From: Ostreibacterium oceani
GTDB lineage: Bacteria > Pseudomonadota > Gammaproteobacteria > Cardiobacteriales > Ostreibacteriaceae
Direction: 5' to 3'
NCBI RefSeq assembly: GCF_009362845.1
Contig: NZ_WHNW01000003.1
Coordinates: 1 to 64,000 of the forward strand
DNA length: 64,000 bases
How positions within the stretch are numbered: position 1 is the first letter of the stretch; every line of letters begins with the position of its first letter. The translations under genes were made by a program, and so were the position numbers. This document shows, piece by piece, positions 6,798-13,810 of this stretch. Under the pieces are notes generated by a model. It was not told the DNA's origin, did not search any database, and saw only the letters and a list, made by a program, of their open reading frames with translations.

Positions 6798-7523
6798 ATG
6801 AAAGCACCGTCAAATCGTACACCGTCAAATCGTAAAAACCTGCTAAAAATCGCTGTTATCTCTGTGGTGATGATGGCGATTGTGGCGTTTTTTGCATTAG
6901 ACTTGTCGCAGTATATGCAGCTCGATTACATCCAGCAGCAACGCGCGGTGTTTGCCGCCTATTATGATGCCAATCGTCTGTTGGTGTTGTTGGGTTTCTT
7001 TTTGCTGTATGTGATAGCGACGGCGCTTTCATTGCCCATTGCGGCCATACTGACGTTATTAGCAGGCGCTTTGTTTGGCTTTTTGCTTGGGTTAGTCGTT
7101 GTCTCATTTGCGAGTAGCATCGGTGCGAGCCTCGCTTTTTTGTTTTCGCGGTTTATTTTTCGGGATACCGTTCAGCAAAAATATGGTCATTATTTGGAAA
7201 AAGTGAATCAAGGTATCAAAAAAGAAGGTGCATTTTACTTGTTTGCACTGCGCCTTGTGCCTGTGGTGCCTTTTTTCGTGGTGAATTTATTAATGGGGCT
7301 GATGCCAATTCGGTTGTGGGTTTTTTATGTGGTTAGTCAAATCGGCATGTTGGCAGGTACCGCCGTTTATGTCTATGCAGGGACGGAGCTGGGGCAAATC
7401 ACGGCATTATCGGATATTATGTCACCGACGCTGTGGATTGCTTTTGTTTTATTAGGGTTACTGCCGTTACTGTCGAAAAAAATATTGGCGGTGATGCGTA
7501 AAAGACACGCGACTAACGTATAA
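6798..7523 (+). CDS. TVP38/TMEM64 (DedA superfamily) membrane protein
   Basis: The 241-residue product has a short basic N-terminus, a membrane segment at about 15-32 and further ones at about 58-82, 88-120, 150-175, 185-205 and 212-230. Between them lies the glycine-rich re-entrant region typical of the VTT/SNARE-associated domain (ALSLPIAAILTLLAGALFG, then a second hairpin with LRLVPVVPFFVVNLLMG). Members are thought to move lipids or anions across the membrane. The flavoprotein gene 120 bp downstream is a frequent neighbour of this family, suggesting a joint job of unknown nature. Confidence 0.88.
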   Translation: MKAPSNRTPSNRKNLLKIAVISVVMMAIVAFFALDLSQYMQLDYIQQQRAVFAAYYDANRLLVLLGFFLLYVIATALSLPIAAILTLLAGALFGFLLGLVVVSFASSIGASLAFLFSRFIFRDTVQQKYGHYLEKVNQGIKKEGAFYLFALRLVPVVPFFVVNLLMGLMPIRLWVFYVVSQIGMLAGTAVYVYAGTELGQITALSDIMSPTLWIAFVLLGLLPLLSKKILAVMRKRHATNV

Positions 7524-7642
7524 CGCTAGCCATATAACCCCAACAGCACCAAGCTAACACTAAATAAACGTAACTAAATAAAAAAATGTATATTAATTCA
7601 AATAGAGATAAGCAAAAAAAGGCAACCGATGAGCGTTTTTGA

Positions 7643-9067
7643 ATGAAAAAATTTGACTATAATCTAATTGTGATTGGTGCAGGCGCAGCGGGTCTTGTGT
7701 CGAGTTATATCGCCGCCGCAACCAACGCCAAGGTCGCCTTAATCGAACAGCATAAAATGGGCGGTGATTGCCTCAATACCGGTTGTGTACCGAGTAAAGC
7801 GCTGATAAAAACGGCCAAAGTGCTGTCGCAAATCCAACAGGCCGAAGATTTTGGCTTAGGTCAAGCACATGTAGAATGGGACTTTCAGACGGTGATGCAG
7901 CGAGTACAACGGATTATTGCCACCATTGAACCACACGATTCGGTTGAACGCTATAGCCAACTGGGCGTTGATTGTATTGCAGGGCAAGCTAGCATTACGG
8001 GTGCGCACGAAGTGTTAGTCAACGGTAGCGCGCTGACGGCACGCGCAATTATTGTCGCAACGGGGGCTCGTCCACGCGTGCCAGATTTGCCTGGATTGGC
8101 TGATATTGCTTATTTGACCAGTGATAATTTGTGGCAACTGTCTGCATGCCCAGAACGTCTTGCCATCATTGGTGGTGGGCCGATTGGCGTGGAAATGGCG
8201 CAGGCTTTTGCACGATTAGGCGCAAATGTGACCATTATTGAGCGCTCACCGACGCTTATGTCCAGAGAAGATGCCAATGTCACTGATTTTATCGAAGCGC
8301 GATTACGTCAAGCGGATGTGACGGTGCTAACCCAACATGAAGTCGAGGGCTTTAGTCCAAAGACGGTCACTTGTCTGCATCAAGGAGAACGGGTTGACGT
8401 TGGATTTGACCAAGTGCTGATTGCATTAGGGCGCCAAGCCAATATTGAAGGTTTTGGCCTTGAAACACTGGGTGTTCAGCTAAATAAAACAGGCACGGTG
8501 GCAGCGAATGCGCTGATGCAGACGAATATTCCGAGCATTTATGTCTGCGGTGACGTGACTGGTCCGTATCAGTTTACGCATGCAGCGGCACATCAAGCAT
8601 GGTACGCCAGTATTAATGCGTTGTTTTCGCCGTTTAAACGATTTAAAGTCGATTATCGGGTGATTCCTTGGGTGACTTTTACTGATCCAGAGGTTGCCCG
8701 TGTCGGATTGAATGAAAAATCTGCACAAGCCGACGGCGTTGCCTATGAAGTATCGACGTATCATCTCAGTGATTTAGACCGCGCGATTACGGAATCCGAA
8801 GCGTATGGATTCATTAAGGTGCTGACTCGGCCAAAAAGTGATAAAATCCTTGGGGTAACGATTATCGGCGCGCATGCAGGTGAGTTGCTCGCGGAGTTTG
8901 TACTGGCGATGAAGCACGGCATTGGTTTAAATAAAATACTGGGTACCATTCATGCCTACCCCACCTTTACCGAGGCGAATAAATATGTGGCGGGGCAGTG
9001 GCGCCAAGCGCATAAGCCAAATTGGGCGATGCGTTTGTTGAGGCGGTTTCATACGTGGCGACGATGA
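7643..9067 (+). CDS. Pyridine nucleotide-disulfide oxidoreductase, mercuric-reductase-like
   Basis: A 474-residue FAD enzyme of the class I disulfide reductase family. It shows the FAD-binding GAGAAGLVSSY, the redox-active disulfide GGDCLNTGCVPSKA (Cys about 43 and 48), the NAD(P)H-binding IIGGGPIGVEMAQAFARLG, the second FAD motif VCGDVTGPYQFTH and the C-terminal dimer domain with HAYPTFTE carrying the catalytic His. There is no N-terminal metal-binding domain and no C-terminal Cys pair, so true mercuric reductase activity is unlikely. Dihydrolipoamide dehydrogenase is also unlikely given the context. Substrate unknown; it is paired with the TVP38 protein upstream. Confidence 0.85.
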   Translation: MKKFDYNLIVIGAGAAGLVSSYIAAATNAKVALIEQHKMGGDCLNTGCVPSKALIKTAKVLSQIQQAEDFGLGQAHVEWDFQTVMQRVQRIIATIEPHDSVERYSQLGVDCIAGQASITGAHEVLVNGSALTARAIIVATGARPRVPDLPGLADIAYLTSDNLWQLSACPERLAIIGGGPIGVEMAQAFARLGANVTIIERSPTLMSREDANVTDFIEARLRQADVTVLTQHEVEGFSPKTVTCLHQGERVDVGFDQVLIALGRQANIEGFGLETLGVQLNKTGTVAANALMQTNIPSIYVCGDVTGPYQFTHAAAHQAWYASINALFSPFKRFKVDYRVIPWVTFTDPEVARVGLNEKSAQADGVAYEVSTYHLSDLDRAITESEAYGFIKVLTRPKSDKILGVTIIGAHAGELLAEFVLAMKHGIGLNKILGTIHAYPTFTEANKYVAGQWRQAHKPNWAMRLLRRFHTWRR

Positions 9068-9182
9068 GGTTGTTGCCTAGGTGGTCGGTGGTCCGTTTTG
9101 TATCGTCTATTCATTATAGCCTATTTTTGCAATCCCAAACGCATCATTAATGCGTTGGTCATGATTAAAAGAGGAGAATTTT

Positions 9183-10142
9183 ATGGAACAACCCCGTTTC
9201 GCTGAGACGTTAGCATCGCACGGCATTGTATTAAAACGTGAACAGCTCAAAACATTACAAGTCAATATTGGTAAACGTTGCAACCAAGCTTGCCATCACT
9301 GCCACGTTGAGTCAGGGCCTAATCGCACGGAAAACATGACGCAAGCGACGGTTCAACGATTGATTGAACTGCTCAGTAAAGCGCCAAGTATTGATACCGT
9401 TGATATTACGGGTGGGGCACCTGAGTTAAATCCGCATTTTCGACCCTTTGTCAGCGCCATTCGAGCAATGGGTAAACAAGTGATTGATCGTTGCAATTTA
9501 ACGGTATTGTACGAACCAGGACAGACCGATACAGCCGAGTTTTTGGCCGAGCAAGAGGTGCAAATTGTGGCATCATTGCCATGCTATATGGAAGACAACG
9601 TTGATGCGCAACGGGGTAAAGGCGTTTTTGATAAAAGCGTTGCGGCACTGCGCAAACTCAATGCATTAGGCTATGGGCAGCCAGATAGCGGGCTTGAGTT
9701 GCATTTGGTCTATAACCCCGTCGGTGAGCATTTGCCGCCGCCACAGGCGTCGTTAGCAGCGGATTATCACAATCATTTGCAGACTATGTTTGGTATTGAA
9801 TTTAACCAATTGTTTACGATTACCAATATGCCAATCAAACGCTATGCGCATTGGTTGGCAAGATTGGGTAAGCTTGAATCGTATATGCAGTTACTGATTG
9901 ATAATTTTAATCCACAAGCCGCGCAAGCGGTCATGTGTCGCGATTTGATTTCGATTGGTTGGGATGGGCAAATTTATGATTGTGATTTTAATCAGATGCT
10001 GGACATTCCATTAAATGGAAAACCGCGTGATATTTGGCAGATTGACGATTTTTCAGCGATTGATTCGGGGGTTGCCGTTGCCGATCACTGTTATGGCTGT
10101 ACGGCAGGTTCGGGTAGTTCCTGCGGCGGCGCGTTGCTTTGA
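9183..10142 (+). CDS. arsS: Arsenosugar biosynthesis radical SAM protein ArsS
   Basis: ArsS-type enzymes use a 5'-deoxyadenosyl radical to attach that group to dimethylarsenite, an early step to arsenosugars. The 319-residue product has the radical SAM cluster motif CNQACHHCH (about residues 33-41), the SAM-binding TGGAPELN (about 79) and a Cys-rich C-terminal end (CDFN, CYGC, SSCGG). This architecture defines the TIGR04167 family. A strong ribosome site (GAGGAG) precedes the ATG. Some relatives carry selenocysteine; here no in-frame TGA appears. The two TIGR04282/04283 glycosyltransferase genes downstream support the call. No arsM methyltransferase is present in the window. Confidence 0.88.
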   Translation: MEQPRFAETLASHGIVLKREQLKTLQVNIGKRCNQACHHCHVESGPNRTENMTQATVQRLIELLSKAPSIDTVDITGGAPELNPHFRPFVSAIRAMGKQVIDRCNLTVLYEPGQTDTAEFLAEQEVQIVASLPCYMEDNVDAQRGKGVFDKSVAALRKLNALGYGQPDSGLELHLVYNPVGEHLPPPQASLAADYHNHLQTMFGIEFNQLFTITNMPIKRYAHWLARLGKLESYMQLLIDNFNPQAAQAVMCRDLISIGWDGQIYDCDFNQMLDIPLNGKPRDIWQIDDFSAIDSGVAVADHCYGCTAGSGSSCGGALL

Positions 10143-10157
10143 TGGAGGTGTTTAATC

Positions 10158-11018
10158 GTGACGAGTGAAATAGTGTGGCGATTAGGGGTGTTTTTTGCTG
10201 TATTGCTTGCTGTTGCATTGGCTGAGCACTGGCGACCTAAGCGGCAACTGACATTTGCCAAATCAAAACGCTGGACGAGGAATTTGGCTTTGGTTGTTGC
10301 GAATACGTTAGCATTGCGGCTGTTTGTGCCTTTTACGGCGGCAAGCGTTGCCATCTATGCAACGCAGCAAGACATCGGGCTATTTAATTGGCTCAATTTG
10401 CCCTTTTATTGGCAAGTCATCCTCTCGGTTATCGTGTTGGATTTGATTATTTATGGGCAGCATGTGGTTTTTCATTACGTCCCTTGGTTGTGGCGGTTGC
10501 ACAAAGTGCATCACATTGATCAAGACATTGACGTCACCACGGGGTTGCGTTTTCATCCCTTGGAAATTATCATTTCTGCGCTAATAAAATGTAGTGCTGT
10601 GTGGTTATTGGGTGTGCCGTTTTTGGCGGTGGTGTTGTTTGAAATCTTGTTAAATGCGACTGCGCTGTTTAATCATGGCAACCTACGCCTACCGCACAAC
10701 GTGGATCGTGTGCTGCGTAAACTATTGGTGACCCCCGATATGCATCGCGTCCATCATTCGACACGAGTAATAGAAACCAACAGTAACTTTGGATTTAATT
10801 TGTCGTGCTGGGATTATCTCTTTAAAACCTATCGAGCACAGCCAAAAGCAGGCCACCAAGCCATGAAAATTGGGCTATCGGCCTATCCCGATGCACAAAA
10901 AACAGGCTTTTGGTGGTTGTTGGTATTGCCATTTAAGCGGCAAGCAACGCGTAATCCGAGTACCGCGAATAACACGACACAGTCCGACCAGCCCGATCAG
11001 TCCGGCCAGCCAAAGTAA
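10158..11018 (+). CDS. Sterol desaturase / fatty acid hydroxylase family protein
   Basis: A 286-residue membrane-bound di-iron enzyme. Histidine boxes are visible as HVVFHYV (about 104), HKVHHIDQ (about 115), HPLEI (about 134), HGNLRLPHN (about 174) and HRVHHS (about 196), with four membrane segments around them. The family hydroxylates or desaturates lipid-like substrates; the substrate here is unknown. GTG at 10158 is the likely start, with GGAGG nine bases upstream, only 15 bp after arsS, so the two genes are probably co-transcribed. A link to the arsenosugar pathway (for example making a lipid partner) is speculation. Confidence 0.82.
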   Translation: MTSEIVWRLGVFFAVLLAVALAEHWRPKRQLTFAKSKRWTRNLALVVANTLALRLFVPFTAASVAIYATQQDIGLFNWLNLPFYWQVILSVIVLDLIIYGQHVVFHYVPWLWRLHKVHHIDQDIDVTTGLRFHPLEIIISALIKCSAVWLLGVPFLAVVLFEILLNATALFNHGNLRLPHNVDRVLRKLLVTPDMHRVHHSTRVIETNSNFGFNLSCWDYLFKTYRAQPKAGHQAMKIGLSAYPDAQKTGFWWLLVLPFKRQATRNPSTANNTTQSDQPDQSGQPK

Positions 11019-11043
11019 ATCATCGATTATCAGAGGAGTTAAT

Positions 11044-11889
11044 ATGTTAGCAATTATTGGCGGCACAGGGCTGTATCAATTACCTGGATTGAATGTTATT
11101 GATAAAATTAAAATCGACACACCGTTTGGTCAGCCTTCGGCGCCGATTGTCAAGGCGGAGTGCTTAGGGCACACGCTGTTATTTTTACCGCGCCACGGTG
11201 AGCAGCATCAATTGATGCCGCATGAAATTAACTACCGTGCCAATATTTTTGCCTTAAAACAATTGGGCGCGCGGCAGTTATTGGGGGTTTCTGCGACGGG
11301 TAGCCTACGTGAATCCATTCATCCAGGGGCGTTTATTTTGCCAACCCAATACCTAGATTTGATTCGTGGTAATCGCGATAAAACGTTTTTTGGTCAAGGG
11401 GTTGTGGCACACGTTTCTACGGCAATGCCTGTTTGTCCCAACTTGACAGCGTGGGTGGCGGCACAGGCAAAACAACAAGGCATGACACTGCACCAAGACA
11501 AAGTCTATGCCTGCGTTGACGGGCCGCGCTTGGGGACAAAAGCGGAAAGTCATTTTTTACGGATGGTCGGGTGTGATGTCGTGGGGATGACAAATGTTCC
11601 GGAGGTGTTTTTGGCTCGCGAAGCGCAACTATGCTATGCCACGCTATGTATCGCAACCGACTATGATTGCTGGCAAGATGATCCCGCGCAGCATGTGACG
11701 GTCGCAGAGGTCATTGCACGCTATGGGCAGTCGCTTGAGCAAGCCAAGGCATTATTAACCGCATTGCTAGCGACACCGTTGCCGCCTATCGATGAGACGT
11801 ATCGGCGAGCGTTAGATCAAGCCATTTTGACGCCAGACTCCGCGATAACTAACACACAACGCCGTTGGTTGAACGTGTTGATGCAATGA
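11044..11889 (+). CDS. S-methyl-5'-thioinosine / methylthioadenosine phosphorylase family protein
   Basis: A 281-residue enzyme of the PNP/MTAP family, which splits 5'-modified nucleosides with phosphate into a base and a 5-modified ribose 1-phosphate. Visible are IIGGTGLYQLPG (phosphate site), FLPRHGEQHQLMPHEINYRANIF, GVSATGSLRE, DGPRLGTKAE and VGMTNVPEVFLARE. The sequence is closest in feel to the Pseudomonas methylthioinosine phosphorylase. ATG at 11044 is chosen for GAGGAG six bases before it. Standing in an ArsS cluster, it could remove adenine from the arsenic-bearing 5'-deoxyadenosine; this is inference. Methionine salvage is the alternative. Confidence 0.85.
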   Translation: MLAIIGGTGLYQLPGLNVIDKIKIDTPFGQPSAPIVKAECLGHTLLFLPRHGEQHQLMPHEINYRANIFALKQLGARQLLGVSATGSLRESIHPGAFILPTQYLDLIRGNRDKTFFGQGVVAHVSTAMPVCPNLTAWVAAQAKQQGMTLHQDKVYACVDGPRLGTKAESHFLRMVGCDVVGMTNVPEVFLAREAQLCYATLCIATDYDCWQDDPAQHVTVAEVIARYGQSLEQAKALLTALLATPLPPIDETYRRALDQAILTPDSAITNTQRRWLNVLMQ

Positions 11890-11930
11890 TTAGCATGAGA
11901 CGACAGTGGGCTATAGGGAGCGCGTTAAGC

Positions 11931-11990
11931 CACATTAAGCCAGCGCACATTAAGCTAGCGCACATTAAGCTAGCGCACATTAAGCCAGTC
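11931..11990. repeat. 15-bp tandem repeat in an intergenic region
   Basis: Four consecutive 15-bp units of the type CACATTAAGCTAGCG lie between the phosphorylase and the first glycosyltransferase. A second simple stretch with GTTGATGTTGGC units follows at about 12017-12050. Both lie outside genes. Confidence 0.92.
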
Positions 11991-12073
11991 CACCTTAGCG
12001 TTGATGGAGTTAGTATTGATGCTGGCGTTGATGTTGGCGTTGATGTTGGCATTGAGACATCAATAAGCGCCGT

Positions 12074-12889
12074 ATGAAGACACAGAGGCTGAGTTTGCCC
12101 CCCGTCACATTGTCGATTATTGTGCCCTTAGCCGATAATGAGACCGCTTGGCAGTTATTATTGTCACAGTTGACAAGGTTATTGCTAACGAAGACATCCA
12201 CGGCTTATCGCGTACTTGATATCGTATTGGTTACCAGTCTGTCGGCTAACGATTTGTTTGCGCGGTTACAAGCCGATACGGCGACACAATCGCTACCTGA
12301 AGGTGGACAGTTGATAATCAAGCAAGCACCTGCTGGCCGGGCATCCCAGATGAATGCGGGCGCCGCCGTTGCCAACGGTGATTTTTTGTGGTTTTTACAT
12401 GCCGATACCGTGTTGTCGGATAACAGTTTTGATGCGTTGGCGGATTCGATTAGCCAACACCCAACGCGATTGCATTATTTTGATTTGGCATTTTTAAAAG
12501 ATGCGACGGCCTTAATGCGGCTTAATCAAATGGGTGTCAAACTACGTTCTCGGCTGGCACACACGCCATTTGGCGACCAAGGATTTTGTCTTGGTGCCGA
12601 CTTATTTGAACAGCTTGGTGGATACCCAGAACAGGCCGCCTATGGTGAGGATCACCTGCTCGTGTGGCGGGCGCGGCAACAGGGGATTTGCTTGCAACCC
12701 GTTGGCAGCTGGTTATGGACCAGCGCACGGAAATATCAACACCAAGGCTGGCTAAGGACAACCATTCGACATCAAATATTGTGGTTGCGGCAAGCATGGC
12801 CTGAATGGCGCCAATTACGTCGATTGCGCCGATTGCGGCAACAACAACGGCAACACAAAATACAAAAACCGTTAGGCGATAGAAAATAA
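12074..12889 (+). CDS. TIGR04283-type arsenosugar glycosyltransferase
   Basis: A 271-residue GT-A fold glycosyltransferase (family 2). It begins with the strand LSIIVPLADNE, carries GRASQMNAGAAVANGDFLWFLHADT (about residues 89-113, with the metal-binding HAD replacing DXD) and FGDQGFCLG further on (about 168). These are the marks of the rSAM/selenodomain-associated transferase 2 family, which occurs with ArsS. It probably transfers a sugar or acts on ribose 1-phosphate-derived arsenosugar intermediates; the precise reaction is not established. It lies 184 bp after the phosphorylase. Confidence 0.82.
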   Translation: MKTQRLSLPPVTLSIIVPLADNETAWQLLLSQLTRLLLTKTSTAYRVLDIVLVTSLSANDLFARLQADTATQSLPEGGQLIIKQAPAGRASQMNAGAAVANGDFLWFLHADTVLSDNSFDALADSISQHPTRLHYFDLAFLKDATALMRLNQMGVKLRSRLAHTPFGDQGFCLGADLFEQLGGYPEQAAYGEDHLLVWRARQQGICLQPVGSWLWTSARKYQHQGWLRTTIRHQILWLRQAWPEWRQLRRLRRLRQQQRQHKIQKPLGDRK

Positions 12890-12991
12890 TATGATGGATA
12901 CAACGCAAGAGACGAAACAATCGGCAAAAAACGGCCTAAGACAAGCGCGATGCGTCACAGCGAATGCGTCACAGCGAATGCGTAGCGGCAA

Positions 12992-13810
12992 ATGAGTAAT
13001 CAGCAGGCGACCCATCGCGTCGCGCTGGCGATTTTCGCCAAAACCATTGGCTTGAGCCCTGTCAAAACGCGGTTGGCAGAGACAATAGGCGAAAAAAAAG
13101 CCACTGAATTTTACGCCAAAAGCCTCGCGGCGGTCGCGCAGGTCGTGCAAGAGGCCGTGCAAATAGTCGCCCAGCCAGCAGCTCAGACAGCAGCTCAGAA
13201 AATAACCGCCCGTGGTCAGATTGAGGCCATCGTGCCTTATTGGGCGGTTGCCGAAGCGGAGGCCGTTAAACCGTATAATCAAACAGTGTCTGCCGAAAAG
13301 CCACCGTACTGGGTTTATGCGCGTGATAATTTGGCGACCAATTTTGCGGCGCTATGGACAGGAAATGGGGATTTAGGGCAGCGTTTGGCACAGGTTTATC
13401 AAGCCTTGCAACCGCATTATGATGCGGTGATAATGATAGGCACCGATAGCCCGCAGCTTATACCAGATCAGATATTACAAGCCCATGATAAATTAAAGCA
13501 ACAGCATAATAACTTTGTCGTTGGCCCAGCTTATGATGGGGGGTTTTACTTGTTTGGCGCAGCGCAACCGATAGCGCCATCCGTCTGGACGGCGGTTAAT
13601 TACAGTGTCGCTGAAACATGTCAAATGTTGTGTGCCCAGTTGTTAAAAAAAGGGCTTGCAAAGACCGTTCTGCCAGTAGCGGGCGATGTGGATGTCTTTG
13701 CTGATTTACTACGATTGCGCGATGAGCTCTCACAACTGCCACGGAAAAATACGGCACAGCAGGCCTTGTTTGCTTGGTTATGTGATGAGCTACCTGATTT
13801 CATTATCTGA
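12992..13810 (+). CDS. TIGR04282-type arsenosugar glycosyltransferase (DUF2064)
   Basis: A 272-residue protein of the nucleotide-diphospho-sugar transferase fold. The family start LAIFAKTIGLSPVKTRLAE is clear (about residues 11-29), as are IGTDSPQLIPDQI (about 149) and GPAYDGGFYLFG (about 176). This is the rSAM/selenodomain-associated transferase 1 family, a partner of the previous gene in arsenosugar clusters. An Ala/Gln-rich insert at about 55-70 comes from near-repeated DNA. The gene ends about 45 bp before the end of folC, which is read from the other strand. Confidence 0.82.
   Translation: MSNQQATHRVALAIFAKTIGLSPVKTRLAETIGEKKATEFYAKSLAAVAQVVQEAVQIVAQPAAQTAAQKITARGQIEAIVPYWAVAEAEAVKPYNQTVSAEKPPYWVYARDNLATNFAALWTGNGDLGQRLAQVYQALQPHYDAVIMIGTDSPQLIPDQILQAHDKLKQQHNNFVVGPAYDGGFYLFGAAQPIAPSVWTAVNYSVAETCQMLCAQLLKKGLAKTVLPVAGDVDVFADLLRLRDELSQLPRKNTAQQALFAWLCDELPDFII

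Follow-up and report, generated by a model that had tools for sequence, protein, structure and literature searches.

A candidate arsenosugar operon of Ostreibacterium oceani comprising a nucleoside phosphorylase of the methylthioadenosine phosphorylase family

The first 64,000 nucleotides of contig NZ_WHNW01000003.1 of the gammaproteobacterium Ostreibacterium oceani (assembly GCF_009362845.1, forward strand; the whole stretch is termed here the window) carry a cluster of seven genes on the same strand, at positions 6798-13810, flanked by recR and by a convergent folC-like gene. We hold with moderate confidence that these seven genes make up an arsenosugar operon, with an enzyme of the methylthioadenosine phosphorylase (MTAP) family as a dedicated step of the pathway. 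Judging from its clade and from its gene neighbours in many bacteria, this phosphorylase probably removes adenine and makes a sugar phosphate for later steps. The genes, with their window positions, are the following:

6798..7523 (+), TVP38/TMEM64 membrane protein with a VTT domain (PF09335, 82 bits)
7643..9067 (+), flavin adenine dinucleotide (FAD)-dependent pyridine nucleotide-disulphide oxidoreductase, similar to MerA and lipoamide dehydrogenase (PF07992/PF02852), scoring too low for any of the NCBIfam models listed
9183..10142 (+), ArsS, a radical S-adenosylmethionine (SAM) enzyme with CX3CX2C and DUF3641 (TIGR04167, 456 bits; PF12345, 186.5 bits)
10158..11018 (+), fatty acid hydroxylase/sterol desaturase family protein (PF04116, 95 bits), between ArsS and the MTAP-family gene
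11044..11889 (+), MTAP-family nucleoside phosphorylase of an arsenosugar-linked clade (TIGR01694, 287.1 bits), proposed to act as a phosphorylase of 5'-deoxy-5'-dimethylarsinoyl-adenosine (DDMAA)
12074..12889 (+), family 2 glycosyltransferase, TIGR04283-like (168.8 bits; PF00535)
12992..13810 (+), TIGR04282/DUF2064-like protein (128 bits; PF09837), with a predicted sugar-phosphate/CofC nucleotidyltransferase fold

An earlier note on this DNA had recognized a shorter cluster. It rightly placed an MTAP-family phosphorylase between ArsS and the transferases; this protein passes model TIGR01694 (287.1 bits for a cut-off of 274.85). The cluster itself is real, but the fatty acid hydroxylase, the TVP38 protein and the FAD oxidoreductase had been omitted. 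ArsS, also named there, scores well over the curated cut-off of TIGR04167 (456 against 300 bits), while the two transferases that had been assigned to TIGR04283 and TIGR04282 are better described as similar to these families, falling just under their curated cut-offs (168.8 against 182 bits and 128 against 134 bits, respectively). Gaps between the seven genes range from 15 to 184 bases. Scans for promoters and terminators gave numbers of sites not above those of shuffled sequences, so that the limits of the operon are set by spacing only. The gene of the phosphorylase probably starts at ATG 11044 and spans 11044-11889, because AGGAG precedes this codon at a normal distance.

The phosphorylase narrowly passes a second model, that of methylthioinosine phosphorylase (MTIP; NF006599, 228.1 bits for a cut-off of 223). 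Its motif, TDYDCW, nevertheless marks it as a putative adenine-type enzyme, not a methylthioinosine-type one. In human MTAP the motif binds adenine through its two aspartates. All 58 rows of the clade described below keep it, with Y/F/W and C/S/A as variants at two of its positions. The genome encodes two PNP_UDP_1 proteins, and the second is an MTIP (NF006599, 289 bits) with TNVNTG at the place of TDYDCW; the solved relative 3ozb, when aligned at the motif, is also without TDYDCW. We rejected the cluster enzyme as the MTIP of this genome, in view of this separate protein and of the difference in motif. The strict preference for methylthioinosine that the earlier note had named as the fact that would speak against its proposal is, as far as sequence tells, not a property of this enzyme.

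What ties the phosphorylase to arsenic is its genomic company. A search of 369 genomes of Gammaproteobacteria (the class of the window, hereafter the class sample) with the window's phosphorylase gave four relatives at 55-59% identity, the remainder having at most 48%. The gene comes directly after that of ArsS in genomes G108, G225 and G324; in G139, where ArsS is absent, the gene ahead of it encodes a different radical SAM enzyme, with ArsM-like, TIGR04282-like, DUF547 and glycosyltransferase genes nearby. All four ArsS genomes of the class sample that carry this kind of phosphorylase, counting the window's, have it within one gene of ArsS, which speaks for a dedicated role. The alignment of these five proteins, window included, was then used to scan contigs, and the best 80 loci were picked by similarity to MTAP, not by context. 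A quick maximum-likelihood tree was built from 91 rows, with support by the Shimodaira-Hasegawa-like approximate likelihood ratio test (SH-aLRT) and no bootstrap; in it the window's enzyme lies inside a clade of 58 rows (SH-aLRT 96). This clade contains all 10 rows linked to ArsS, all 19 linked to a second radical SAM family that we term altRS, and eight of the nine linked to transferases only.

Context was counted within 6-7 kb, one duplicate genome being removed and 27 rows outside the clade having a computed context. Of the 57 clade loci, 36 have ArsS, altRS or a transferase as a partner, whereas only 1 of the 27 outside does (Fisher P 7e-8). For a radical SAM partner the figures are 28 of 57 inside the clade and 0 of 27 outside it (P 1e-6). 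Both P values overstate independence because the rows are related. Transferases are also found at 19 of the 28 radical-SAM-linked loci. The survey that the earlier note had advised thus ties the clade to ArsS or altRS, together with transferases, in many genomes. These span alpha-, beta- and gammaproteobacteria, and linkage labels change several times on the tree (six changes for ArsS, eight for altRS), so that partners were swapped or dropped more than once.

One of these loci belongs to an uncultured Burkholderiaceae metagenome-assembled genome (MAG; L211), which has the identical seven genes, with identities to the window of 57% (TVP38), 66% (oxidoreductase), 75% (ArsS), 67% (hydroxylase), 68% (phosphorylase), 53% (TIGR04283-like) and 41% (TIGR04282-like). 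Because order and strand are the same there, the arrangement is not a matter of chance. Variations on the theme exist: ArsM occupies the slot of the hydroxylase in an alphaproteobacterial MAG (L217), and another locus (L210) reads ArsS-ArsM-MTAP, followed by two glycosyltransferase genes. We also collected 119 ArsS neighbourhoods, the window and 118 others, not at random but from the best-scoring places with usable contigs. Tblastn placed a gene related to the window's MTAP close to ArsS in a single neighbourhood, that of the window itself, a misleading result because this sample omitted G108, G225 and G324, where the two genes adjoin; queries with MTIP, with an MTAP from outside the clade and with an MtnN-like protein found no further relative near ArsS in the other 118.

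The clade has a signature of its own. Columns at least 90% fixed within it, with the same residue in at most 25% of the sequences outside, give Y103, S125, V158, R162, L163, G164, V180, F189, Q195, D213 and H217 (residue 1 being the M encoded at 11044), and most members have a proline inserted at 214. For human MTAP we assume the roles and numbers of F177, S178, D220, D222, V231, V233 and V236. On this numbering L163/G164 presumably align to F177/S178, and H217 would stand beside the valines of the 5' pocket, so placed that some of the clade-specific changes may line the base and 5' pockets. They fit, short of proof, an altered 5' substituent. The changes are present in linked and unlinked members of the clade alike.

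ArsS itself has the expected make-up: its cysteines C33, C37 and C40 (CX3CX2C) are invariant across five ArsS proteins, and the C-terminal DUF3641 part (PF12345) is present. Passages of PMC8552651 and PMC12159101 describe the function of ArsS; by analogy with other members of the family, the window's ArsS is predicted to adenosylate dimethylarsenite. In the class sample ArsS is present in 182 of the 369 genomes, and some genomes have two matches (G101, G164, G213, G331, G411, G421). Among the 31 other genomes of the window's order neither ArsS nor a phosphorylase over the MTAP cut-off was found, and the cluster was therefore probably gained by transfer.

In the 119 neighbourhoods a TIGR04282-like protein appears in 69, a TIGR04283-like one in 68, and both in 57; four proteins (L055, L087, L105, L236) fuse the two. 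NCBI labels the pair as arsenosugar biosynthesis and names TIGR04282 a glycosyltransferase. The profile of the window's TIGR04282-like protein, made from 39 relatives, retrieved six sequences of the PDB at E<=1: 3cgx and five whose names denote nucleotidyltransferases or proteins of unknown function with this fold (two cytidylyltransferases, two guanylyltransferases and the CofC-like 2i5e). Its predicted model (predicted local distance difference test score, pLDDT, 89.7) matches 3cgx (Z 24.7, root-mean-square deviation 2.4 over 223), 2i5e (Z 20.6, 2.1 over 198) and the 3-phosphoglycerate guanylyltransferase 7p97 (Z 18.9), and further structure matches are mostly IspD, TarI and GlmU. The model thus points to a nucleotidyltransferase fold, while a fold alone shows no function. 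The gene lies two downstream of the phosphorylase, and its product could in principle use a sugar 1-phosphate. A nucleotidyltransferase needs a sugar phosphate, and it is for this reason that a phosphorylase, unlike a hydrolase, would suit it.

The remaining genes recur as well. Relatives of the fatty acid hydroxylase lie near ArsS in 27 of the 119 neighbourhoods, counting the window, which hints at a lipid as end product. Other loci, too, have TVP38 next to ArsS or altRS, and it is often fused there with the gene that follows: fusions with the FAD oxidoreductase, of some 710-735 residues, are present near ArsS (L132:9989-12115, L037, L144 and others). In three loci of the class sample (L312-L314) altRS has an ArsM-like gene on one side and TVP38 with the oxidoreductase on the other.

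altRS, our name for an otherwise unnamed family, is found at 19 clade loci (L200:10019-10945 and 18 further), that is, at 19 of the 28 that are linked to a radical SAM gene. Its members are some 310 residues long and show CX3CX2C as well as a set of C-terminal cysteines that is conserved among them. They were rejected as members of the ArsS family: four scanned proteins have no PF12345 (DUF3641) match at E<=1, and profile comparison with ArsS aligns the radical SAM core only. Among the 25 best NCBIfam families listed for each of these four proteins, none has its cut-off passed. The predicted model resembles the radical SAM enzymes SkfB, BlsE and SuiB. ArsL was compared by length only, BgArsL having 428 residues according to a passage of PMC8552651.

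ArsS is present in 0 of the 19 altRS clade genomes against 18 of the 35 other clade genomes (chance 5e-5), and altRS occurs in 7 genomes of the class sample, none of them with ArsS (chance 0.008). Genomes G133, G140, G202, G221, G323 and G368 also carry altRS, whose neighbours at its various loci include ArsM-like, transferase, TVP38 and oxidoreductase genes. An ArsM-like gene lies within 1.5 kb of altRS in five of the seven class-sample genomes; for G202 and G221 the search gave no ArsM at E<=1e-25. Because no genome in the comparison has both altRS and ArsS, and ArsM-like genes frequently adjoin altRS, the family seems to take the place of ArsS. We propose, tentatively and with slightly more doubt than conviction, that it is a non-orthologous replacement that adenosylates methylated arsenic or a similar element, that the MTAP clade serves either enzyme, and that, once the transferases are added, every step that leads from arsenite to activated arsenoribose and on to its glycosides is accounted for.

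For the window, the route would run as follows. Dimethylarsenic would be supplied from outside the cell. ArsS, by the reaction described for its family, would join the 5'-deoxyadenosyl radical to this dimethylated arsenic. With phosphate, the phosphorylase would convert the resulting 5'-arsinoyl-5'-deoxyadenosine into adenine and 5-deoxy-5-dimethylarsinoyl-ribose 1-phosphate, which the TIGR04282-like protein could activate to a nucleoside diphosphate sugar. The TIGR04283-like glycosyltransferase would then move the arsenoribose to an acceptor, for example glycerol or a glycerolipid. The observed basis of this scheme is gene content, clade membership, conserved linkage, the adenine-type motif and the TIGR04282-like fold.

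Several facts weigh against this scheme. The clade is present in only 4 of the 182 ArsS genomes, window included, and other ArsS clusters manage without the phosphorylase. The claim of the earlier note that the enzyme fills a gap in the pathway, which clade linkage, the adenine-type motif and the nucleotidyltransferase-like neighbour favour, therefore would not hold in general, and the phosphorylase would belong to a lineage-restricted version. No partner gene at all is seen at 21 of the 57 loci of the clade. Next, ArsM was not found in the window's genome by a search with NF008823 (matches being called at E<=1e-25), while it is present in 132 of 182 ArsS genomes of the class sample against 26 of 187 without ArsS. 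We therefore rejected the distant arsM on which the earlier note had relied for methylation: the weak matches to the model are UbiE (378 bits to a UbiE model) and two proteins at 19 bits. It is because arsM was not found that we look outside the cell for the dimethylarsenic that ArsS would need, unless an ArsM too divergent for the model is present; among the 54 genomes that carry the phosphorylase clade, 17 have an ArsM match. Finally, the cluster enzyme may double as the sole route of the cell for methylthioadenosine and 5'-deoxyadenosine, because the other PNP_UDP_1 protein is an MTIP and an Amidohydro_1 deaminase (PF01979) that would feed it was not found in the genome, other deaminase families not being searched.

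Of two other explanations, the better is a fair rival, though we deem it unlikely. When radical SAM enzymes turn over without coupling they release 5'-deoxyadenosine, an inhibitory by-product, which the phosphorylase might clear, leaving the arsenic nucleoside untouched; this would be the reason for its linkage to ArsS and altRS. A passage of PMC8102628 reports that MtnP-type enzymes turn 5'-deoxyadenosine into 5-deoxyribose 1-phosphate, the adenine-type motif would suit this activity, and three loci (L197, L198, L199) pair ArsS and MTAP without transferases. A scavenger, however, would be expected beside many kinds of radical SAM enzymes, and within 10 kb of the clade's MTAP the strong radical SAM neighbours are ArsS and altRS only (two others score 40 and 52 bits); the transferases that accompany 19 of the 28 radical-SAM-linked loci have no place in it either. 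That the enzyme is the ordinary methylthioadenosine phosphorylase of the organism, in the cluster by chance or horizontal transfer, is quite improbable: it does pass the MTAP equivalog cut-off, the search of the genome gave no second protein of the superfamily that is adenine-type, and the 21 loci without arsenosugar context agree with it, but linkage is conserved over many lineages, one of them with the same seven-gene order, and the clade-specific residues are rare in other MTAPs.

If the phosphorylase is a dedicated step of arsenosugar synthesis, as we favour, several consequences follow. In the passages of the open-licence literature that the search covered, no enzyme is assigned to the replacement of adenine in the product of ArsS, and the clade offers a candidate for this step, with a chemical logic shared with the synthesis of hopanoid side chains. 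The fold of TIGR04282 is a reason to reconsider the family name of glycosyltransferase. altRS, should its proposed role be true, would add to the genomes regarded as producers of organoarsenic compounds, because searches for ArsS miss altRS genomes.

Known systems help to place these proteins. CofC/FbiD and the 3-phosphoglycerate guanylyltransferases match the TIGR04282-like protein in fold and profile, but at about 13-17% identity. MTIP belongs to the same superfamily as the cluster enzyme and differs by its motif, as seen above, and by its setting, the gene in this genome (G000:C1:189610-190305; L206:9611-10342) adjoining a phosphoribosyltransferase-like gene named by eye from its sequence. 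MtnP/MTAP enzymes share the sequence family and TDYDCW; the window's clade departs from them in R162, L163, G164, F189, Q195, D213, the inserted P214 and H217, and in genomic context. The ArsM/ArsS pathway of the cyanobacterium Synechocystis uses the same ArsS family (TIGR04167) and relatives of NCBI's arsenosugar transferase pair, to which the operon of the window adds the MTAP-clade phosphorylase and the fatty acid hydroxylase, in a genome where arsM was not found. Finally, the synthesis of hopanoids provides a parallel, where HpnG is a protein of the PNP_UDP_1 superfamily. There, as described in a passage of PMC12583986, the radical SAM enzyme HpnH first attaches the 5'-deoxyadenosyl radical, and HpnG, a putative phosphorylase, then takes off the adenine. 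The acceptor is a hydrocarbon, not arsenic, but this succession of adenosylation and loss of adenine is the order that we propose for ArsS and its neighbour, and the pair HpnH/HpnG may, by analogy, be its precedent.

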